NCBI RefSeq assembly: GCF_000511385.1
Contig: NC_023137.1
Coordinates: forward strand, 387,001-451,000
Origin: Phaeobacter gallaeciensis DSM 26640
GTDB taxonomy: Bacteria > Pseudomonadota > Alphaproteobacteria > Rhodobacterales > Rhodobacteraceae
Reading direction: 5' to 3'
Length of the DNA: 64,000 nucleotides
Part shown: positions 34,798 through 47,269 of the stretch, one piece after another
Position numbering within the stretch: the first letter of the stretch is position 1
Layout: each line of letters opens with the position of its first letter
Notes under the pieces: generated by a model
What the model was told of the DNA's origin: nothing
Database searches by the model: none
Seen by the model: only the letters and a program-made list of their open reading frames with translations
Program-made: the position numbers and the translations under genes

Positions 34798-34844
34798 TTG
34801 GTCGGAGCGAGAGGATTCGAACCTCCGGCCCCTGCCTCCCGAAG
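34798..34844. repeat. attL: Left attachment site of the integrated element (47-bp direct repeat)
   Basis: 47 bp identical to 47192-47238, i.e. the 3' part of tRNA-Pro from the CCA end through the anticodon loop. The similarity stops abruptly after GAAG. This is a partial tRNA left by site-specific integration, not a functional tRNA. Confidence 0.93.
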
Positions 34845-36615: not shown

Positions 36616-37131
36616 ATGAAGGACTGGGCAGGAAAGGGAGCGATTGGCAGAGGAGGGCGCTGTGCTCTGCACCAGCGCATACGCCAGGAGCTGCGCACCA
36701 AGCTGCTTGACTACGATTTCACGCACTTCATTACGCTGGCATCGAACCACCAGCCATTGGGTTATCTGCGTATGCGCGCTTTGCTGAAAGAGTGGGATGC
36801 ACGTGTGAACCGTGAGATCAACGGGCCGAAGTGGGGTAAGCGGCCGGACGAGCGCTTGGTCTGGTTCGCCTTCCCAGAGAAAATGGACGTGAATCCGCAT
36901 TGGCACATGATTGTGCAGGTGGATCAGGACATCGAATCTTCCACACGAGCCGAGCGCACCGAGCGCTTGTTCGAGATCGGGCACATGCACTGGCTGAGCT
37001 TGGTGCGGCAGGGATCTTTTGACTGTCAGGGCGTTGAATCTGCTGGGGTTATCCAATATATTGCGAAGATGAGTGCCGAGGAGACACATTTCAATAAGTT
37101 CGTTGTCTTCCGAGAGTTCATGAACATCTAG
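36616..37131 (+). CDS. Small HUH-type endonuclease (replication initiator-like)
   Basis: A 171-residue protein with the three motifs of HUH nucleases in the right order: motif I HFITLASN (residues 37-44), motif II PHWHMIV with H95 and H97 flanking a bulky hydrophobic residue, and motif III QYIAK with Y148 and K151. Such enzymes nick one DNA strand and stay bound through the tyrosine; they start rolling-circle replication of plasmids and phages or act as relaxases or transposases. At 171 residues with no helicase or primase part it is minimal. ATG 36616 follows GGAACC poorly. Element context suggests replication after excision. The family name cannot be given without a search. Confidence 0.62.
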   Translation: MKDWAGKGAIGRGGRCALHQRIRQELRTKLLDYDFTHFITLASNHQPLGYLRMRALLKEWDARVNREINGPKWGKRPDERLVWFAFPEKMDVNPHWHMIVQVDQDIESSTRAERTERLFEIGHMHWLSLVRQGSFDCQGVESAGVIQYIAKMSAEETHFNKFVVFREFMNI

Positions 37132-37776: not shown

Positions 37777-39452
37777 TTAAAATACGTCGTGCAATCCTAC
37801 GCTTTCACCATCGCAAAGTTTCAACATCACACCTTCTATCATTTTGGCTCGTGCCTCAAGGAATTCATTGAAGTCACCAGTTGTCAGCTTTTGCACAGGA
37901 ATGGCATGTGAGCTGAGGCGGCGACTTACTTCGGCTTCGTCTATATCGATTTCTTTAGCACGTTCGGCGATATAGGTTGCCGGCGGTTTTGCTCCAATCG
38001 AGCGATTGGTTCGCCAGCTAATTAGTGCGCAATTCAATGCGCAAAATATGTCACGTTTCTCGAAATTCTTCTCAAGTAGAGCTTTAGGAAACAAGTGGTG
38101 GTATTCGCGTTTTTCGAAACTTTCTTGGCCAAAGGGTGCTTCATCGGCAAAGTCATACCCGCCGATGCGTAGCGAAGCAGTCAGGATGGCGCGCCCAAGA
38201 CGATCTTTCGTCTTCGGCCAACCACCGGTCTTGAGCTCCCCAACTGTCGGCAGTGGAGTGCGTTGACGGTCTAGGAGTTCAGGTAGAGGCCCATTCTCAT
38301 CGCGATAAGCAATCAGTTGTCGAACATCGAGGGCTGCTCTGGTCGCGCTTGTCTTTTGGTAGCGTTCCGAGAAAGCACCGCTCCAGAGCGCTTTTCGAGC
38401 CAGACGTCGAGCAGCGCCTTTGGCATCCTTCCCTTCTGCCGCGGTAGCCCAAAAAGCTGCCAGCACCGAGAGGATAGGATCCGAAGGTAGAAGCTTGGCA
38501 TTAAATATTTTTTCTTCGGCAAGGAAGCCGATAGCCCTTAATAAGCCTCGCTCAACATCAGCCCAATTCTTTGCGAGGGATGCCCCAAAATCCTTGGATA
38601 GGTAAGTCGCGCGATTTGGTGGTCGATCCAAAAGAATGGCTCCCACCTGCATCGCTATTTCACCAGGATCACCAAATCTTGAGGCGCCTGGCACAGCCGC
38701 TTTTAGTGCCTCAACCTTTTCGTGGAGTGATGCGTCCATCTCCGCTTCAACCTGTGCCACTACGATGTCGAACGCGGACAGCGCGGTATTTTGAGTATTC
38801 ATCTTGATGAAAACGTCAAGCGCTGCATCCCTTGAAGTGCCCAAGGGAAGTGAAAGAAATGGTAGTGAATATTTGGCAATGCGTCCTCGAAGCTCGTTTG
38901 CGATTTCATTGATTTCACTATAGAAATCCATATCACCAGCGGCTGCTTCTTTGCTCCAGACTTTTAAGCGACCACGGCCTGCTTCATCCGGGGCGAGCAT
39001 TTCGACAGGTATGCGACGCCGTTTCCAGGTTTCTACAGGGCTATTGCACCAACGAGGATACCTTTGCCCCTTATTGTCATACCGTCGAATGGCGTCGATT
39101 TCGGGCTCCTCATTGCTGTCAACGTTCACCATGTAGGTAAAGTCCGGATATAGACCATTCAGACTGCGCCAGAGAGCTGTAACACGCTGCTGACCGTCTA
39201 ATAGATGATAGCCAGGTCGACCTTGGGGTTGTGGAGCGCCGGAAATCGGGCGCGCATGGAACGGCGGTGTCTCTCCAACTTCAAGGGTCAACAGAGCTCC
39301 AACAGGCAGTGCCGGTTTGCGTAGGATGTTTTCCAGGATGCCTTGAACCTGCCACCACCCCATGCCTCAAACCGCTGAAACCTGGGAAGCACGACATGAC
39401 CATCGCGGATCCAAGCAAACCAATCCTCAATTGTGCGGTTTCGTGCTTCCAT
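37777..39452 (-). pseudogene. GmrSD-like DUF262/DUF1524 nuclease, N-terminus frameshifted
   Basis: The long frame from ATG 39363 gives 528 residues: the DUF262 nucleotide-binding signature LLDGQQRVTALWRS (residues about 54-67) and a C-terminal DUF1524 HNH-type site with HHLFPKA (residues 422-428) and a later asparagine region (ALNCALISWRTNRSIG). The proper start is upstream in another frame: ATG 39452 reads MEARNRTIEDWFAWIRDGHV then VLPRFQRFEAWG, the standard DUF262 opening. One base missing in the G-rich stretch near 39355-39364 joins them as EAWGWWQVQGIL. Family members are type IV restriction nucleases (GmrSD, BrxU, SspE). The gene follows the GIY-YIG gene by 43 bp on the same strand, so it belongs to that cluster. 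It could be a real loss, a slippage switch, or a sequencing error. Confidence 0.75.
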
Positions 39453-39495: not shown

Positions 39496-40710
39496 TTACG
39501 ATGCCTTGGTTCTGGGTGAAATTTTCTGGCTGGTCGGATCATACCAGAACTCATGCAGCCGCCCTTCTCGGATCAACGCTGCGGCATGACTCACATGCTC
39601 TGGCAAAACAAAGAACCATTCCTTGGGGTGGTGCATCTTATTGCCAAAACGATCTGGGACAGTGAGTTTTGCAGGACGCGCTGCTTCGAAGAACCGATGA
39701 AGAAGCTTCTCGACCCTTTCCCTGGGTAAGTTTCTTAAACGGTATGTTGCGACGATCTCAACAGGGGCCAGCAGAAAGGTTGGGTCATTCTTGGCATCTG
39801 CCACACGACGTTTCACGTCCTGGCTGGTCACACCGATCTTGTGAAGAATGTCGCGGTGTGGCCGGATGTTAGGATCATCGGACATAGATTTTGCGACATA
39901 GATTATCCCGGTGACGGCCAGCTGGTCCGCCTCCCATTCCGGATCGAGTGGCCCCAACCCAACCTTCTGAACGGAACGGGCGGTTTTGTCATCGTTCAAC
40001 GCTTTGCGGAATGAAGCGACCATGGGGTCACTTTCCGTGCCGTTGGACAGCACTATGCGCAACCGGTCTTCCTGAGACAACCCGCCTGAAGATTTACGCA
40101 TCCGCTCGACTACGAGGCACAGAAGCCCATTTCGGATGAAAACATCCCCGGCGACAGGTTCGATAATCGCCCATTTCTCAACGATCCTGGTTTTCCGCTC
40201 ACCTGCTTCTAGAGCGGCCTGAATCTGCGAGAACTTGGCTTCGAATTGGTCGAATTCTTGGCAAGGGACAAACTCTGCACGGTGTTCTGGCTGATGCCTC
40301 TCCGCAGACGGCGTAACATGACGGAGGTCCGAGAATTCTGTTGGCACCTCCAGATCATCATCAGCAAATATATCGTCCAGACTGTCTGGGATAACATCTT
40401 CAGTTGGCTCGTCGCGCCAGTTCGCGTGTTCAGGTTCTGCGGCAGTCAAGAGGCCCAGCCTATCCGCCTCCAACATGTCTTGGGTCGGGGCTTGCCTCAA
40501 CTTGTCCCAAATGGTTCCCAGGCGCATCTCTTCGTGGTCTTCCGCGTCCGGATCCGGCAGACGACCGTGCTGCTCGAAAAACCGCGTAACGTCGCTGAGA
40601 ACCGCTGTCCCGCCGTCAGATTTCGACGCAACCTGCTTCTGAGGGGCGACTTGAAGAAGGCCAAACTCGTCAGGCTCGGCGAAGATGTCATCAAGTGTGG
40701 GTCTTGGCAT
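39496..40710 (-). CDS. GIY-YIG nuclease domain protein (third gene of the methylase-helicase-nuclease cluster)
   Basis: A 404-residue protein. The C-terminal third (about residues 262-380) is a GIY-YIG nuclease of the T5orf172 type: GIIYVAK (268-274), KIGVT (291-295, the YIG strand), arginines 301-302, glutamate 334 in VEKLLHRFF, and KEWFFV at the end. The N-terminal 250 residues have no recognised domain; LDDIFA occurs twice (residues 6-11 and 111-116), each before an acidic patch. Its ATG overlaps the helicase stop (TGATG), so it is translationally coupled. It resembles B. subtilis YeeC, which also follows a methylase and a helicase gene. Likely role: DNA cleavage for the cluster. Confidence 0.75.
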   Translation of the reverse strand: MPRPTLDDIFAEPDEFGLLQVAPQKQVASKSDGGTAVLSDVTRFFEQHGRLPDPDAEDHEEMRLGTIWDKLRQAPTQDMLEADRLGLLTAAEPEHANWRDEPTEDVIPDSLDDIFADDDLEVPTEFSDLRHVTPSAERHQPEHRAEFVPCQEFDQFEAKFSQIQAALEAGERKTRIVEKWAIIEPVAGDVFIRNGLLCLVVERMRKSSGGLSQEDRLRIVLSNGTESDPMVASFRKALNDDKTARSVQKVGLGPLDPEWEADQLAVTGIIYVAKSMSDDPNIRPHRDILHKIGVTSQDVKRRVADAKNDPTFLLAPVEIVATYRLRNLPRERVEKLLHRFFEAARPAKLTVPDRFGNKMHHPKEWFFVLPEHVSHAAALIREGRLHEFWYDPTSQKISPRTKAS

Positions 40711-42782
40711 CAGAGCGCCCCTTCACGCATTCGTTTGGCTTTCTGGGTTTTGAGCCAGGCCAAGGTCTCGGCCATCCGCTTCTCCAATGCATCAGCTGCG
40801 TTCAGATTGGGTTCACGCCCCTCGGAAGCCCGAAACGCCTTGATCCGTGGCCAAAGCGTGCGTGCCTCTTCCTCGGTCATGGCGACGCGGATGGCGACCA
40901 TGGCGGACTGGACGTGCTGCAGCAACTGAGCGTCGAGCGACTTGGAAGCGACTTCAAACCGTTCTTGGAAGGCATTCACACTGTCAATCAGATCTACGTC
41001 GATTTCGCGCACGTTGATGAATTTCTTCACCATTTGCAGAAGTGTGTTCGGGGCACCCTCTGGTTCTTCTTCACCGTTGTCGTCAACATCAGTTGGCTTG
41101 CCTTCAAAAACCGCCGCAGCCTCCGCCATCCCACGCTGCTCTTCCTGCCGGGCAAGGGTCAGGATGTTCATATGCGCAGCGAGATGCTGGCGGGCGCTTT
41201 CGGTTTCTTCGTCATTGAGGTCCGGATAGCGCGTTTCGATGATGTCTGTCAGAACCATCTGGGTAGCGACCTCAGGGGCCGTGTCAGGCGCCAGAACCCG
41301 CTTGTCCATGGCCTGGCAGGCCGCAGCCAGCAGATCATGCATATCCTGCTCGCAGATCTCTTTGGCGCGCACAGTGGGCGGCTCGATCAAGCCCTTGATG
41401 CCGATCATGACGTTGCCCTGGCCATCGCTATGCACCGGCTCACGCACGTCCCCGTCTTCGCGGCGATAAAACTTGAAGTTCGGGGCCAGCACCTGCTCCA
41501 TCAGAAGCGAACCAGAGATCGCCTTGAGCATGTCGTTGACCGCGTCCGAAACCACATCGGTTTCGACCCCTGGCTCTGCCACCAGGTTGGTGAAAGCAGC
41601 GCGCGGCTTTCCCGGAGCATCGCGCGTGGCGCGGCCGATAATCTGCACGATTTCTGTGAGCGAGGATCGATACCCGATGGTCAGCGCATGCTCGCACCAG
41701 ACCCAGTCGAACCCTTCCTTTGCCATGCCAAGCGCGATGATGATGTCCACCTTGGCTCGATCCGCCGCATCATCTCGTTTCCCATCCACGCCCTTTATCT
41801 CGCGCGACAGGGCCGTCTTGACGATGCCGCGCCCTGGACCATCGTCAACGAGGTCGGCAACCTTCAGAACCCGCCCCTCGGGCAATTCGATCAGATCGAA
41901 CCCGGTTTCCGGATCCCGACCGACGTGCTTGCCAAGGAAATCCATGATCTTTCCGACCTCATTGTTCTTGTCATCGAACGCCTCGGACGAGCCACGGTGA
42001 GGAATGTGGATGATGGTCTTCTGTGCCGGGTTCAGCACACCTTCCAGTCCGTTGGTATAGTTGCCTTTGTAGAACTGGTAATTCACCCCCAGCGCCTTGA
42101 GGTGCTCATAGCCCTCCAGCTGTTCGTAGTAGCTGTAGGTGATCGTGGTGAACTTGGCCTCATCCTCGGGGCGCAGCACGGGGTCGGCGTCGCCACGGAA
42201 ATAGCTGCCGGTCATGGCCATCAAATGGCATTTCTCGCGAGCCACCAAGGCTCGCAAAATCACGCCGAGGCGGTTGTTGTCCGAGGCCGAGACGTGATGG
42301 AATTCATCCACTGCGATGAAGCAATCGTCAAACGCCTCGATCCCCTGATCTTCCATCACCTTGTCATAGGCAAAGCGGAAGGTGGCGTGAGTGCAGACCA
42401 GGACCTCAGCGTCTGAGCCCATGAAGTCGACAAAGGCTTTCACCTTCTGATCCTGGGCGTCATCGCCAGTCAGGCAGAGGTTCCACTTGTCCTCGACCTC
42501 CCAATCCGCCTCGAACCCATAGCTGGTCAGATCCGTCGAGCGGAATGACCCGCCGATCGAGGTTTCTGGCACGCAGACGATAGTCTTTTCACGGGCCTGA
42601 TGGCGCATCTTGTCGAGTGCGATGAGCATCAGTGCCCGGCTTTTCCCCGCCGCCGGGGGCGCTTTCAGCAGCAGGAATTGTGCCGCCCGCGCCGCATAGG
42701 CCCGCGCCTGCATTTCGCGCATGCCCATGGCGTTGGTCGAGGACTTCGAGCGCCCGTAGGTCACATTGAGCATCTGAGCCAT
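40710..42782 (-). CDS. SF2 DEAD/DEAH-type helicase of the restriction-like cluster
   Basis: A 690-residue helicase/translocase. Motif I is LKAPPAAGKSRA (residues 40-50), motif II is FIAVDEFHH (a DEFH box), motif III is MAMTGSY, and motif VI is IVQIIGRATRD. The C-terminal 250 residues are acidic then helical, with no recognised nuclease. ATG 42782 lies directly after the TAG of the methyltransferase gene; the stop shares one base with the GIY-YIG ATG. The arrangement implies fixed stoichiometry of a three-protein machine. Closest remembered relatives are YeeB-type proteins next to MmeI-like methylases. Confidence 0.82.
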   Translation of the reverse strand: MAQMLNVTYGRSKSSTNAMGMREMQARAYAARAAQFLLLKAPPAAGKSRALMLIALDKMRHQAREKTIVCVPETSIGGSFRSTDLTSYGFEADWEVEDKWNLCLTGDDAQDQKVKAFVDFMGSDAEVLVCTHATFRFAYDKVMEDQGIEAFDDCFIAVDEFHHVSASDNNRLGVILRALVAREKCHLMAMTGSYFRGDADPVLRPEDEAKFTTITYSYYEQLEGYEHLKALGVNYQFYKGNYTNGLEGVLNPAQKTIIHIPHRGSSEAFDDKNNEVGKIMDFLGKHVGRDPETGFDLIELPEGRVLKVADLVDDGPGRGIVKTALSREIKGVDGKRDDAADRAKVDIIIALGMAKEGFDWVWCEHALTIGYRSSLTEIVQIIGRATRDAPGKPRAAFTNLVAEPGVETDVVSDAVNDMLKAISGSLLMEQVLAPNFKFYRREDGDVREPVHSDGQGNVMIGIKGLIEPPTVRAKEICEQDMHDLLAAACQAMDKRVLAPDTAPEVATQMVLTDIIETRYPDLNDEETESARQHLAAHMNILTLARQEEQRGMAEAAAVFEGKPTDVDDNGEEEPEGAPNTLLQMVKKFINVREIDVDLIDSVNAFQERFEVASKSLDAQLLQHVQSAMVAIRVAMTEEEARTLWPRIKAFRASEGREPNLNAADALEKRMAETLAWLKTQKAKRMREGAL

Positions 42783-45500
42783 CTATTTGCTCCTTTTGCC
42801 GCGCTTGCCTTTCGCAGCCTGTTTTTCAATCTGTTTGATCTTGGCGGCATAGAGCTTGAAAAGATGCTCCAGCCGTTCGGTGTCATTGCGGAAGGGCCGC
42901 CCGATATACATGGTCTCCAACAGATCATCATTCTCCCGATGCACCGCGCGCAGGTCGTCGGGCATCTTCTCCGGGTCATAGAGCTGGGCGATGGTCGCTG
43001 GGTAATGGGAATAGCGGCACTTCAGGATCTTGCGGGCCGAGGCATTGAGTGCCTCAAGCTGTTCCTCCGAGAACTTTGGCACAGGGAAGGTGTTCCAACC
43101 CAAAGTGTTGGAATAGCGGAAATCGGATTTCAGCTTGCCGCAGACGGTTGCGATCCAGATCAAATGGATGCGAGAGGCAATCAGGGCAAGGCACCAGTCG
43201 GGAGAGTCCGGGATCAGAAATGCCAAGTTGGAAACCACAGCGCCACGCTCAAGCTTTCCTACAGGGAACCACGCTCTCCGTTCTGAGCTCACAGAGGGAA
43301 TAATCGTGGGGGAGCCAACTCTCGGCCCTACATGTTGAAAGCGATGGGGCACGGTTGAAAGAAACTCTCTGGTTTCCTTCTTTTTACTCACTTTGCGGAT
43401 TTCTGCGACCCGCCGTGTCCTCTCACAGACCTCTTCGATCTTCATTGCTTCAGGCAAAGCATCGTCGTCAATCGCCAAACACCAACGGTCCAGCGACTTG
43501 ATAAAATCTTCTGATCCGGCAAAACGTCGAAGGAACTGGGTAGCGCTGGGTGCTTCGCCCAGCAGGTTGGCCTTCTCAATGTTGGACAGGATCAGATTTC
43601 CCCCGTCATTGGGGACGCTACCAGTTACCATCTTTGGAAGAAGGTTAAATATTGGGTTTGGAGCACTCGCTACCGGCACGTCCACCGCGTTAATCAAATA
43701 CCGATTTATCTGATCGCACTCATGAACAACCCCATCCGAAAAAAGCCTTCTGGTGGTTCCTGTGCTCGGATTTCTCAGACCTACGATAACGCAATTGACT
43801 GCAGCCTTGCCTGAGGCGTTATTAGACCACTTGAAGGTTGTATGTGCGAAAAAGATCTCAGCTCCCTTGGAAAGAAGCGCAGGCCACAGTTGGTCAACCT
43901 GACGACCTTGGCAAACCGAGTTCGTGGCAACCAGTGCGAATTTGGCAGCTCTACCTGCAATAAAATCCGAAGCAAGAAGGAACCAGCAGCCTACATAGTC
44001 GACATATCCATATTTTTTCAGCCGGTCACCGAAGATATACTCCATGTCCTGGAGATGCTGAGTTTCTTTCTTGCCCTTTCCAAGAAACGGCGGATTGCCT
44101 GCTATGAACACCTCTTCGCCCTCTCCAGGCGGCGGGCAAACCTCTTCCCAATCCACCTGTAGGGCGTTGTCACAGACGATGTGGGCGCTCTCGCGTAGCG
44201 GCAGGCTGGGCGGGCTCTGTCCAAAAACCTCCTTGAACACCGCGTTGGCCTGATACTCCGCGATGAACAGCGCCAGCTTGGCGGTTTCTGCGGCGAAATC
44301 GGTGATCTCGATCCCGTGGAAATTGGCGATTTTCACGGCCGAGAACATTTCCTTGGTGCTCTCACCCGTCAGTTCCTCCAGCCGCTCCAGGATCCGCATT
44401 TCGCGTTCGCGCAGCTGACGGTAAGAAACGACCAGGAAATTGCCTGATCCACAGGCGGGGTCAAAAACCCGGATCCCCTCGATCCGCGTCAGCGCCCTGC
44501 GCAGGCCATTGGGCCGTTCCCAAGCCCTCACTATCTCGGCATCAAGATCATCCAGGAACAGCGGCCCGATCACCTTCATGATGTTGGGCACCGAGGTGTA
44601 GTGCATCCCCAGCTCGCTGCGCTGTTTTGGATCAGCCACCGACTGGATCATGGAGCCAAAGATGTCCGGATTGATCTCGCGCCAATCCTCATCACAGGCA
44701 TCGCGCAGATAGCGATAGGCGGTCACGTCAAAGACGGGCGCGTCGATAGATCCCGCAAAGAGCCCGCCGTTCACATATTCCAGGTCACCCGCCCAGGCAG
44801 GAAGATCGCTGCGCTTGTCCTTGGGTTGGTTCATGGCGGTGAAGGAAGCGATAATCACCTCGCGTGCTTCCTCGCCCTTGTTGCCCGCATGGTTGAACAG
44901 GATCTGGCTGAACTGGTTATCGGGGAAGATGCCCACGTCCTCGGCAAACATGCAGAAGATCAGCCGCATCATCAGCTGGCTCATCTCATGCCGACGCGCG
45001 TCGCTGGCCCAATCCGGGTTCTTGCGCACCAGAGCGTCATAGAGCTTGGCCAGCTTGGCGGTGACCTTGACGTCGATCGGGTTTTCTTCGGCTGCCTCAT
45101 AGCGTTCCTTGCCCGCAGCAGGCAGGAAGAAGCCGAATTTGTCCCCGATCTCGTCAAAACGGCAATGCAGGGTCTCTCCGCTAACCCGCTGTTGGGCAGC
45201 CACCATTTCGCCATCGGTGGCGATCAGGATCGCCGGTTTGGCGGTGGCGGTCTTCTTGGAGTTTCGCAGGGCCTCCAGGGTGACATCGGCCATGCCAGAC
45301 ATGGCAGGCGCAAAGTGGAACTTCTTGTTGACCAGGACGCCGCCGGGCTGATCCGACTTATTGGTCGTGCCATTGCGCAGCTTAGCAATAGCCGCCTGGG
45401 CGACATCCGTGGCCTGGGCAAAATCGAACGGGAATTCGTCAGCGTCGAACGGTTTGTCGGAGATCTGTTCCAGGGCTTCGAAGATCTCGGTGGGGTTCAT
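42783..45500 (-). CDS. MmeI/YeeA-like adenine-specific DNA methyltransferase
   Basis: A 905-residue protein of the type IIL/MmeI (COG1002-like) class. SAM motif I is VFDPACGSGNFL (residues 345-356) and the catalytic motif IV is NPPF (469-472), indicating N6-adenine methylation. LGMHYTSVPNIMKVI before motif I is a strong family mark. The region beyond 600 should hold target recognition and the C-terminal helix. In MmeI itself the N-terminus is a PD-(D/E)XK nuclease; here residues 1-130 show no such pattern, so cleavage is probably done by the GIY-YIG protein. The start at 45500 (MNPTEIFEALEQ) fits the family better than the upstream ATG at 45587. It is the first gene of the minus-strand operon. 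Confidence 0.85.
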   Translation of the reverse strand: MNPTEIFEALEQISDKPFDADEFPFDFAQATDVAQAAIAKLRNGTTNKSDQPGGVLVNKKFHFAPAMSGMADVTLEALRNSKKTATAKPAILIATDGEMVAAQQRVSGETLHCRFDEIGDKFGFFLPAAGKERYEAAEENPIDVKVTAKLAKLYDALVRKNPDWASDARRHEMSQLMMRLIFCMFAEDVGIFPDNQFSQILFNHAGNKGEEAREVIIASFTAMNQPKDKRSDLPAWAGDLEYVNGGLFAGSIDAPVFDVTAYRYLRDACDEDWREINPDIFGSMIQSVADPKQRSELGMHYTSVPNIMKVIGPLFLDDLDAEIVRAWERPNGLRRALTRIEGIRVFDPACGSGNFLVVSYRQLREREMRILERLEELTGESTKEMFSAVKIANFHGIEITDFAAETAKLALFIAEYQANAVFKEVFGQSPPSLPLRESAHIVCDNALQVDWEEVCPPPGEGEEVFIAGNPPFLGKGKKETQHLQDMEYIFGDRLKKYGYVDYVGCWFLLASDFIAGRAAKFALVATNSVCQGRQVDQLWPALLSKGAEIFFAHTTFKWSNNASGKAAVNCVIVGLRNPSTGTTRRLFSDGVVHECDQINRYLINAVDVPVASAPNPIFNLLPKMVTGSVPNDGGNLILSNIEKANLLGEAPSATQFLRRFAGSEDFIKSLDRWCLAIDDDALPEAMKIEEVCERTRRVAEIRKVSKKKETREFLSTVPHRFQHVGPRVGSPTIIPSVSSERRAWFPVGKLERGAVVSNLAFLIPDSPDWCLALIASRIHLIWIATVCGKLKSDFRYSNTLGWNTFPVPKFSEEQLEALNASARKILKCRYSHYPATIAQLYDPEKMPDDLRAVHRENDDLLETMYIGRPFRNDTERLEHLFKLYAAKIKQIEKQAAKGKRGKRSK

Positions 45501-45896: not shown

Positions 45897-46199
45897 ATGA
45901 GAGCTGACGAAGCGTTTTTGACTGTTGAAGATTTTGCAGCAGCTTTGCACCGCACCATTTCGTCCAGAACGGTTAGGACGATGATCCACGATGGACAAAT
46001 TAACGCGACCAAGATTGGGCAGCGTTTTTACATGACACGTGAAGAACTGGCGAGGTTCGTTTCCACATGCCACGCAAACGCAAACCGGCCCGACTCTTCC
46101 AGCGCAAAGACGATGGCGCTTGGGTCATCCTCGACGGAGGACAGCAGATCCGGACAGGTTTTGGTGACGGATTTCATAAGGAAGCAGAAGAAGTCCTGA
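45897..46199 (+). CDS. Excisionase-like helix-turn-helix protein
   Basis: A 100-residue protein. FLTVEDFAAALHRTISSRTVRTMIHDGQINATKIGQRFYMTREELARFV is a MerR/excisionase-type winged helix-turn-helix that bends DNA at attachment sites. The tail (from residue about 57) overlaps the integrase gene by 133 bp in another frame, so the pair is coupled and the tail may be unconstrained by its own function. It follows the usual xis-int order toward the tRNA. ATG 45897 is chosen because the domain begins right after it. Confidence 0.7.
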   Translation: MRADEAFLTVEDFAAALHRTISSRTVRTMIHDGQINATKIGQRFYMTREELARFVSTCHANANRPDSSSAKTMALGSSSTEDSRSGQVLVTDFIRKQKKS

Positions 46200-47086
46200 G
46201 TGATTACATCGCACGGAAGAGACGACAGGATGATCATGTTTACGAGCCGGGTGAGATCACCGTCGGCGAAGTCCTGGTGCACTACGGTGAAGCCAAGATG
46301 AAGACGGTGCGCGACAAGGACCGTTTACTATACACAATTCAGGCTCTGTCGCCTTACTGGGGTGACCTGAAAGTGTCGGAAATCGACATCGATAGGTGTC
46401 GTGGTTACACGGCCTGGAGAAAATGTGCAGCTTGGACCGTTCGGCGCGAGATGACGACGCTGAATGCCGCGGTTAAATACGCCTTGGCGACGCGCAGGAT
46501 CAGTTATGCTCCGATTGTGACCTTGCCGGAAAAGGGGGGTGCGAATGACCGCTGGCTGACTGAGGAAGAAGTGCAGCGTCTGTTGGGCGCTTCCGCACCG
46601 CACGTCCAGAGGTTCATCAAGATTGCGCTTTATACTGGGCGCCGCAAGACGGCGATCACGCGACTGAAGTGGATGCCTTCCCTGGATAGTGGTTGGGTCG
46701 ACCTTGACACTGGTGTGATCCATTTTCTCGGCAAGGCCGAGGCTGAAACCAAGAAGCGCAAAGGCTTGGTCAGGATGCCCGCCACGCTCCACGAGGAAAT
46801 GAAAACTTGGGTTCAGGAGGGAAGCCACGTGGTGTCCTTCAAGAACACCTCGATACACCGGATCGATAAGGCCTTCCGAGCCGCTGTCGAGCGCGCCGAA
46901 CTGAAGGACGTAACGCCCCACACCCTCAAGCATACGGTAGTAACCTGGGCGTTCAAAAGGGGCATGACCCTGGAAGACGCGACAGCCTACTTTGCTACCT
47001 CGCGCGAAACCTTGGAGAACGTCTACCGATCCTACAGTCCGGATGCGCTGAAGAAGGCCGCCGGGATCATGGACTGGAAAATTTGA
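46067..47086 (+). CDS. int: Tyrosine recombinase/integrase
   Basis: A 339-residue integrase of the element. N-terminal arm-type and SAM-like segments (residues 1-150) precede the catalytic domain: arginine in ALYTGRRKTAI (about 192-193), then PHTLKHT where H285 is followed by K288 instead of the usual arginine, and the nucleophile region NVYRSYSPD with Y320 (Y323 possible). Similar HTLKHT variants occur in alphaproteobacterial integrases, so it is probably active. It ends 105 bp before the right attachment site in tRNA-Pro, the typical position. Confidence 0.9.
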   Translation: MPRKRKPARLFQRKDDGAWVILDGGQQIRTGFGDGFHKEAEEVLSDYIARKRRQDDHVYEPGEITVGEVLVHYGEAKMKTVRDKDRLLYTIQALSPYWGDLKVSEIDIDRCRGYTAWRKCAAWTVRREMTTLNAAVKYALATRRISYAPIVTLPEKGGANDRWLTEEEVQRLLGASAPHVQRFIKIALYTGRRKTAITRLKWMPSLDSGWVDLDTGVIHFLGKAEAETKKRKGLVRMPATLHEEMKTWVQEGSHVVSFKNTSIHRIDKAFRAAVERAELKDVTPHTLKHTVVTWAFKRGMTLEDATAYFATSRETLENVYRSYSPDALKKAAGIMDWKI

Positions 47087-47191: not shown

Positions 47192-47238
47192 TTGGTCGGA
47201 GCGAGAGGATTCGAACCTCCGGCCCCTGCCTCCCGAAG
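47192..47238. repeat. attR: Right attachment site of the integrated element (47-bp direct repeat)
   Basis: Identical to 34798-34844. It covers the 3' part of tRNA-Pro from CCA to the anticodon loop, so integration rebuilt an intact tRNA. Confidence 0.93.
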
Positions 47239-47269
47239 ACAGTGCTCTACCAGGCTGAGCTACGCTCCG
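47193..47269 (-). tRNA. tRNA-Pro(CGG)
   Basis: 77 bases with encoded CCA. Acceptor stem CGGAGCG/CGCTCCG, D arm GCTCAGCCTGGTAGAGC, anticodon stem CTGTC/GGCAG with loop TTCGGGA (anticodon CGG at 47235-47233), and T loop GGTTCGAATCC. It reads the CCG codon. Confidence 0.96.

Follow-up and report, generated by a model that had tools for sequence, protein, structure and literature searches.

A mobile DnmA-YeeB-YeeC-type gene cluster with an exchanged target-recognition cassette in Phaeobacter gallaeciensis

Introduction

The closest described relatives of the locus considered here are the dnmA(yeeA)-yeeB-yeeC genes of Bacillus subtilis, noted earlier by Morgan 2009 (as cited in PMC7261158 and PMC9973331), in which DnmA produces N6-methyladenine at GACGmAG (PMC7261158). 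These genes are reported to form a conserved cluster whose surroundings are richer in defence genes than random regions (PMC7261158, PMC9973331), a type I-like role has been proposed for them (PMC7261158), and in Vibrio crassostreae the deletion of the dnmA and yeeB homologues is described as raising sensitivity to some phage subclades (as cited in PMC9973331). Here, a further cluster of this kind is described from a 64,000-nucleotide (nt) stretch of the genome of Phaeobacter gallaeciensis DSM 26640 (contig NC_023137.1, positions 387,001 to 451,000; hereafter the window, to which coordinates refer unless a locus is named), in which a minus-strand trio of genes at 39496-45500 encodes, in order, an MmeI-family N6-adenine methylase, a superfamily 2 (SF2) helicase and a GIY-YIG (T5orf172) protein. 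The favoured reading, held at a probability of roughly 0.6, is that the three genes make up one ATP-dependent restriction-modification (R-M) machine of the DnmA-YeeB-YeeC kind, carried on an element in a tRNA-Pro gene and equipped with a swappable recognition module.

Because the cluster belongs to the published dnmA(yeeA)-yeeB-yeeC class (PMC7261158, PMC9973331), the class itself is not new, and the window cluster is a real, intact and mobile member of it that is ordinary as a gene set. The interest lies rather in the evidence for an active class that re-targets itself. No name for the system beyond DnmA/YeeB/YeeC was present among the literature matches listed, and the words searched for the system were absent from a 2026 account of BREX (bacteriophage exclusion) diversity (PMC12839542).

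Results

Layout and distribution of the three genes

The methylase stop codon TAG directly abuts the helicase ATG, and the helicase TGA shares one base with the GIY-YIG start codon (TGATG), confirming in the sequence the coupling described in the original prediction; the Pfam families likewise bear out its assignment of an MmeI-like methylase and a separate GIY-YIG protein with an SF2 motor between them. The yeeA-yeeB-yeeC order of B. subtilis, to which the original prediction compared the genes, agrees with the published layout. As judged from published descriptions, the window cluster shares its gene order, its domain set and a nuclease-less MmeI-like methylase with the B. subtilis and V. 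crassostreae clusters, along with a horizontally acquired setting (PMC9973331). Unlike the B. subtilis copy, which was inactive in the tests made, the window copy has all its motifs intact, resides on a tRNA-Pro element and shows demonstrable exchange of its recognition module.

To describe conservation, a species genome collection of 84,980 was queried with exact-peptide patterns from the helicase, and the best 80 of 126 confirmed loci were kept, so that close relatives are over-represented among them. All three genes, in the same order and on the same strand as judged by eye, were found in 76 of these 80 loci, including some in which a gene is broken (e.g. L047, L068), an arrangement that is therefore not attributable to chance. 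The four exceptions were L069 (a helicase fragment alone), L078, in which a methylase was not detected, and two loci close to the end of their contig (L072, L090). The predicted class was thus found to be conserved, as the original prediction had held, and it is already in print together with phage tests (PMC7261158, PMC9973331). Distances of -8 to +4 nt separate methylase and helicase in 50 of the 67 measurable loci, and helicase and GIY-YIG gene in 76 of 87, with the window's value of -1 occurring in 34. A Rhizobium metagenome-assembled genome (L051) carries a helicase 73% identical to that of the window.

Helicase matches were found in 17 of 195 genomes (own included), 15 of them full-length, and in the genome collection they occur in Alpha-, Beta- and Gammaproteobacteria, Bacteroidota, Verrucomicrobiota and Lentisphaerae. 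Among 72,556 plasmid records, 261 carry a match at E <= 1e-20, 152 of which cover at least 80% of the helicase length, and 116 of the 261 are predicted to be conjugative. These records include 72 from Acinetobacter and 33 from Pseudosulfitobacter, and among the plasmid matches listed several are annotated as 'pseudomurein-binding repeat-containing protein', likely a misannotation. A phage origin of the cluster was rejected, as only 2 partial matches were present in 50,697 phage records; IMG/VR contributed 43 loci, of which L155 was the one looked at, with host flanks unchecked in all.

Exchange of the recognition cassette

Identity to locus L071 reaches 97% in the helicase, 94% in the GIY-YIG protein and 99% in the methylase N-terminus, against 47% in the target-recognition domain. 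In 30-residue segments, methylase identity to L071 is 87-100% up to residue 450 and 80% at residues 451-480, falls to 24-63% at 481-780 and then returns to 83-100%. At the nucleotide level, blastn of ~43209-44078 gave no match to L071, L021, L022 or L155, with 86-96% identity in the matches on either side, and the edges of the unmatched stretch are near-identical across the four relatives, varying by at most 6 nt. This cassette, which covers the second half of the methylase domain and most of the target-recognition domain, has a GC content of 50.5%, whereas the left flank and the helicase both stand at 59% and the methylase right flank and the GIY-YIG gene at 55%; the corresponding stretches in the four relatives lie at 49.5-51%. 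Its left border falls just past the NPPF motif, at residues equivalent to MmeI K487/S488, which are described as contacting the minor groove (PMC4833311). The closest module in the protein database is 66% identical.

The same pattern was seen across the wider family. Among 90 pairs with helicase identity of at least 93%, 80 have modules less than 70% identical despite methylase flanks at 85% or more, while the modules are at least 85% identical in 8 pairs and intermediate in 2; the pairs derive from 47 loci in 13 groups and share loci, so they are not independent, and two of the groups (L058/L060 and L065/L066) have all modules alike. Over 1920 within-subfamily pairs, helicase distances correlate with those of the GIY-YIG protein (r 0.93) and the methylase flanks (r 0.91) and not with those of the module (r 0.06), from which it follows that the three proteins travel as one machine while the target reader is exchanged. 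A constant machine with an exchanged target reader is what would be expected of a working system for discriminating self from foreign DNA. Recognition-domain movement is known for type I and type III genes of Helicobacter pylori (PMC3983042), and MmeI-family specificities are reported to be extensively diversified (PMC3874165); no published account of cassette exchange in the dnmA-yeeB-yeeC class was present among the literature matches listed.

A different purpose for the exchange is conceivable, in which a changed module would alter the host methylome and gene expression, and the sole task of the motor and nuclease would be to guard against loss of the locus. DnmA is reported to alter how a subset of B. 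subtilis genes is expressed (PMC7261158, PMC9973331), and the specificity-changing methylases of H. pylori have been presented as an expression network (PMC7379913). Such an epigenetic switch would leave the constraint on motor and nuclease and the mobility on a tRNA element unexplained, and loss of dnmA with yeeBC present is reported to cause no growth defect in B. subtilis (PMC7261158). It is held to be the least probable of the alternatives considered.

A methylase with a dead nuclease domain

The methylase consists of an N-terminal domain (residues 1-159), a helical spacer, a methylase domain, a target-recognition domain and a C-terminal domain, matching Pfam MmeI_N, MmeI_hel, MmeI_Mtase (E 2.1e-98), MmeI_TRD and MmeI_C. 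The MmeI crystal structure 5hr4 matches from residue 122 on (E 2.1e-146), and the motifs DPACGSG (347-353) and NPPF (469-472) are present. DPACGSGNF and NPP are retained in 84 of 86 methylases, this and the other motif counts being taken over complete open reading frames (ORFs) scoring above 100 bits, with near-duplicates kept.

A survey of methylases in the phylum gave matches in 125 of 398 genomes, from which the 30 best-scoring loci (the window's own included) were compared. Two methylase types were apparent: 19 with an N-terminus aligning to that of the window (own included) and 9 of the stand-alone MmeI type, with two more loci (L117, L125), both with a helicase next door, lacking the N-terminus and thus not assignable to a type. 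The motif [VI]D.F..G...[VA]E.K, the presumed counterpart of MmeI D70, E80 and K82 (PMC4833311), is present in all 8 stand-alone N-termini examined (L127 being left out), whereas a scan for D..E.K found none in the 19 window-type N-termini, of which that of L104 was scanned from an internal Met. The absence of a nuclease motif noted originally therefore holds across the type. Comparison of profiles built from 14 window-type (five of the 19 omitted) and 8 stand-alone sequences nevertheless indicates that the two N-terminal domains are homologous (probability 98.4%, E 8.9e-15). Given this homology and the missing D..E.K, the N-terminal domain of the window methylase is, on sequence evidence, a PD-(D/E)XK domain that has lost its D, E and K, and an intact nuclease in the methylase is ruled out by the motif and profile comparison. 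Loss of the nuclease is associated with the motor: a helicase lies near 17 of the 19 nuclease-dead methylases (own included) and near none of the 6 nuclease-bearing ones that could be assessed (Fisher p 1.6e-4, with L117 and L125 dropped for want of an N-terminus and L123, L126 and L127 for too little downstream DNA).

The alignment to 5hr4 also allows one position of the target to be predicted. In the MmeI code, a Lys806-Asp808 pair specifies G:C at position 6, adjoining the flipped target A of TCCRAC (PMC4833311), and window residues K791/D793 align to the MmeI contact positions E806/R808. The window site should consequently end in AG, with G directly after the methylated A, which is consistent with the B. 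subtilis GACGmAG, though no proof. The pair at this position is K-D in 54, E-R in 19, R-D in 9 and another combination in 4 of 86 family members. Further window residues aligned to MmeI contact positions are T626, V629, H723, S736, N758, L759 and R795.

Conservation of the motor and the GIY-YIG protein

The helicase matches Pfam DEAD (E 1.1e-6) and ResIII (E 7.8e-5) and carries motifs I, II and VI as the Walker A GKS (46-48), DEFH (159-162) and QIIGRATR (380-387); GKS is kept in 98 of 100 family members, and DEFH, Q380, R384 and R387 in each of the 100. The GIY-YIG protein matches MUG113 (E 2.1e-10) and T5orf172 (E 4.7e-9) and shows the signature residues G268, Y271, K291-I292-G293, catalytic R302 and E334, of which G268, Y271, K291, G293, R302 and E334 are each kept in 98 of 98, so that the catalytic Arg and Glu proposed as a check are in place. 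Among solved structures searched by sequence, none matched the helicase at E 0.01, and the GIY-YIG protein had a single chance-like match (E 0.72).

Relative to L071, L021 and L022, the ratio of nonsynonymous to synonymous substitution rates (dN/dS) lies at 0.03-0.05 in the helicase, while the GIY-YIG gene has 0.08-0.09 and the methylase flanks span 0.05-0.11; L023 was not used, as its synonymous sites are near or past saturation. These values point to strong purifying selection on the parts of the machine outside the module.

A short acidic-hydrophobic motif is duplicated in the GIY-YIG protein, at residues ~4-20 and ~112-124 (TLDDIFAEPDEFGLL and SLDDIFADDDLEV), and distant relatives of the protein carry a parallel repeat, DDALLAELGVE. 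The duplicated motif may be a docking motif.

Integration in a tRNA-Pro gene

Two identical 47-nt repeats flank the region (Table 1). Six congeners were compared, with the left flanking gene located in four. Three of these four (L150, L151 and L152) have an empty site, at which the two outer flanks run together through an intact tRNA-Pro gene, and the fourth (genome G006, locus L153:3591-7587) carries the element at the same tRNA-Pro place. On these grounds the cluster is carried as cargo within a 12.4-kb integrase element inserted in the tRNA-Pro gene. The original prediction, borne out in its motifs and layout, had missed both this element and the cassette exchange, and its interpretation is in that respect supported only in part.

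Table 1. Positions of the cluster, the exchanged cassette and associated features in the window
Feature	Position	Strand	Basis or remark
MmeI-family N6-adenine DNA methylase, DnmA/YeeA-like	42783..45500	-	905 amino acids (aa); Pfam, 5hr4 match, motifs
SF2 helicase-like motor, YeeB-like	40710..42782	-	690 aa; Pfam, motifs
GIY-YIG (T5orf172/MUG113) nuclease-like protein, YeeC-like	39496..40710	-	404 aa; Pfam, motifs
Exchanged specificity cassette, methylase residues ~475-764	43209..44078	-	blastn gap with matching flanks; GC
Accessory DUF262/GmrSD_N gene	37777..39452	-	ORF 37777-39363; start near 39452 by comparison with L071, L021
Helix-turn-helix (HTH_17) excisionase-like gene, divergent from methylase	45897..46199	+	Pfam HTH_17 E 1.7e-8; PHROG excisionase E 1e-7
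Tyrosine integrase	46067..47086	+	Pfam Phage_integrase E 3e-10; PHROG integrase E 1.8e-34
Attachment-site copy, 47 nt	34798..34844	.	Identical to copy in tRNA-Pro gene
Attachment-site copy, 47 nt	47192..47238	.	Covers 3' part of tRNA-Pro(CGG) gene
tRNA-Pro(CGG) gene	47193-47269		Upstream of cluster

A small protein encoded within the element at 36616-37131 has a sub-threshold match to the replication family REP_ORF2-G2P (E 0.0091), and a near-identical copy of it is present in L153.

Discussion

Proposed mechanism and comparison with known systems

By homology, a DnmA-type methylase would recognise an asymmetric site of ~6 bp and methylate one adenine on one strand. On meeting an unmodified site, the methylase would hand control to the YeeB-like motor, which would move along the DNA, with the YeeC-like GIY-YIG protein nicking it. 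Cleavage would need two converging complexes arriving from inverted unmarked sites, each cutting one strand, much as in type III and type ISP enzymes; this would be the simplest of the safeguards called for because a one-strand mark leaves unmarked sites in newly replicated host DNA. MmeI-type enzymes likewise mark one strand, and their action through two opposed sites has been argued to spare newly replicated DNA (PMC3874165); in CglI, the SF2 motor and the nuclease are separate proteins, described as cutting after communication along DNA (PMC5737866). Whether the class amounts to a separate working type of ATP-dependent restriction, in which the MmeI nuclease has been replaced by a motor and a GIY-YIG nicking protein compatible with any recognition cassette, specificity resides in a ~870-nt cassette with fixed borders and cleavage takes place between converging inverted sites, is put at about even odds. 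Defence against phages would be its presumed function, and should any MmeI-like recognition cassette prove acceptable to the machine, it would constitute a re-targetable restriction platform.

Several established types share parts of this design. MmeI and the type IIL enzymes have the same five MmeI Pfam domains, the match to 5hr4 and alignable base-contact positions, but in the window methylase the PD-(D/E)XK residues are lost and cleavage would need other proteins. Type I R-M systems (HsdR/M/S) similarly consist of several subunits, use an SF2 motor and have a specificity part that can be exchanged; unlike them, the window cluster would be expected to use a contiguous asymmetric site and a one-strand mark, and it has no HsdS and places its GIY-YIG nuclease on a separate chain. 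At E up to 1, none of the three proteins gave a Pfam match to an HsdS specificity subunit or to the HsdR_N nuclease. Type III and type ISP enzymes place a one-strand mark on an asymmetric site, and CglI/NgoAVII combines a phospholipase D (PLD)-like nuclease with a 5-methylcytosine (m5C) methylase. The motor-mediated communication between sites proposed for the window is drawn by analogy with type III and type ISP enzymes (PMC5737866), from which the window differs in having methylase, motor and nuclease as three proteins and no intact PD-ExK. CglI/NgoAVII resembles the window in the cooperation of a separate SF2 ATPase and a separate nuclease at asymmetric sites, but the CglI complex is described as comprising nuclease and ATPase (R2H2), with the methylase not in the complex (PMC5737866).

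The three proteins could alternatively act in the manner of BREX or DISARM (defence island system associated with restriction-modification), the methylase marking self and the motor and GIY-YIG protein blocking or degrading replicating foreign DNA with no two-site cleavage. BREX too is reported to recognise and methylate non-palindromic 6-bp motifs (PMC11341690), and the reported lack of avoidance of DnmA sites in phages would argue against classical restriction (PMC9973331). Against this, the methylase scores 884 bits to the type IIG model of PADLOC, compared with at most 112 bits, a partial similarity, to DrmMI and 23.5 bits to the PglX models, and its best NCBIfam PglX score is 26.8 where the cut-off is 500. 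No PglZ, BrxC or other BREX or DISARM partner was found among the element proteins scanned (part of the element ORFs), no PADLOC Drm model matched the helicase, GIY-YIG or DUF262 proteins, and the nuclease residues are retained throughout, so that membership of BREX or DISARM is rejected, a BREX- or DISARM-like mode appears unlikely and the statement that the layout differs from type I, BREX and DISARM systems stands. As PADLOC models match the window motor and nuclease only weakly, its output for the cluster would probably show nothing but a single type IIG enzyme.

Working system or relic

A number of observations weigh against a working ATP-dependent R-M machine. In B. subtilis, single deletions are reported to have left killing and plaquing by three phages unchanged, and loss of dnmA to have left transformation unchanged (PMC9973331, PMC7261158), and for want of an effect in these tests the authors called the cluster a non-functional relic (PMC9973331, PMC7261158); phages are moreover reported to show no avoidance of the DnmA site (PMC9973331), and other phage subclades were unaffected by the V. 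crassostreae deletion (as cited in PMC9973331). Among the loci compared here, two of the 19 nuclease-dead methylases (L132 and L136) lack any match to the helicase or the GIY-YIG gene in the available flanking DNA, and broken members exist, affecting the methylase ORF in L047 and the helicase in L068, with helicase fragments in L017-L020 and L069. In congener G006 the methylase match stops at ~residue 506, where a transposase gene of the integrase-core (rve) kind adjoins it, and the genome has no helicase match and no DNA match to the helicase/GIY-YIG/DUF262 stretch. The helicase-module distance correlation rises to r 0.46 over all pairs of 82 loci when distant subfamilies are included, suggesting that exchange occurs mainly within subfamilies, and the exchange could also serve epigenetic switching. 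Finally, translocation and convergent cleavage enter the proposed mechanism by analogy only.

The B. subtilis tests, the G006 element without motor and nuclease and the broken members would all suit a relic, in which an orphan methylase of a dead restriction system is kept for gene regulation and the motor and nuclease are defunct. However, the window motor and nuclease keep all the catalytic residues checked, like nearly the whole family, and evolve at a dN/dS of 0.03-0.09 while being co-inherited with the methylase flanks. A regulator of host genes should also keep its target, and the recognition module is the sole part not kept. Further, YeeB and YeeC of B. subtilis are said by their own authors to be missing stretches (PMC9973331). 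Cassette exchange combined with strong purifying selection elsewhere thus disfavours the relic, which is considered improbable, and favours a working, specificity-switching ATP-dependent R-M system; with the best-studied copy, that of B. subtilis, having been declared a relic, the exchange provides a sharp reason to think otherwise of the class.

Accessory genes

Following the cluster is a DUF262/GmrSD_N gene, considered as a possible fourth core component and rejected: among the 80 loci a full-length homologue occurs only in L021 and L071, with a weak match in L065 and L066, and in the window the gene is split near 39360, its first ~31 codons being in another frame, at a point that is open in L071 and L021. 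On account of this rarity and the split, it is regarded as accessory.

In L132 (988-7819) and L136 (3852-9821), the methylase is followed downstream by a ~141-aa protein, an HTH antitoxin-like gene, a ~160-aa protein and a DUF1828-like protein, with Pfam checked in L132 only and the likeness between the two judged by eye. These genes may represent an alternative set of effectors serving this methylase type.

Of the 77 loci that have a methylase, 20 carry more than 150 additional nt between methylase and helicase, and this junction has the look of a slot into which accessory genes are placed. In L031 (6399-7999), the insert holds two genes, which overlap one another as well as the methylase stop. 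The second is Abi_2/PD-T4-5-like by Pfam and PADLOC, with which this gene was checked in L031 only; by eye, a similar gene is also present in L026, L032, L033, L035, L048, L059, L072, L074 and L081. The uncharacterised ~259-aa gene that precedes it in L031 is, by gap length, probably present in six others. The insert of L085 carries a RhuM-family gene, that of L099 appears similar by eye, and further loci carry other genes.

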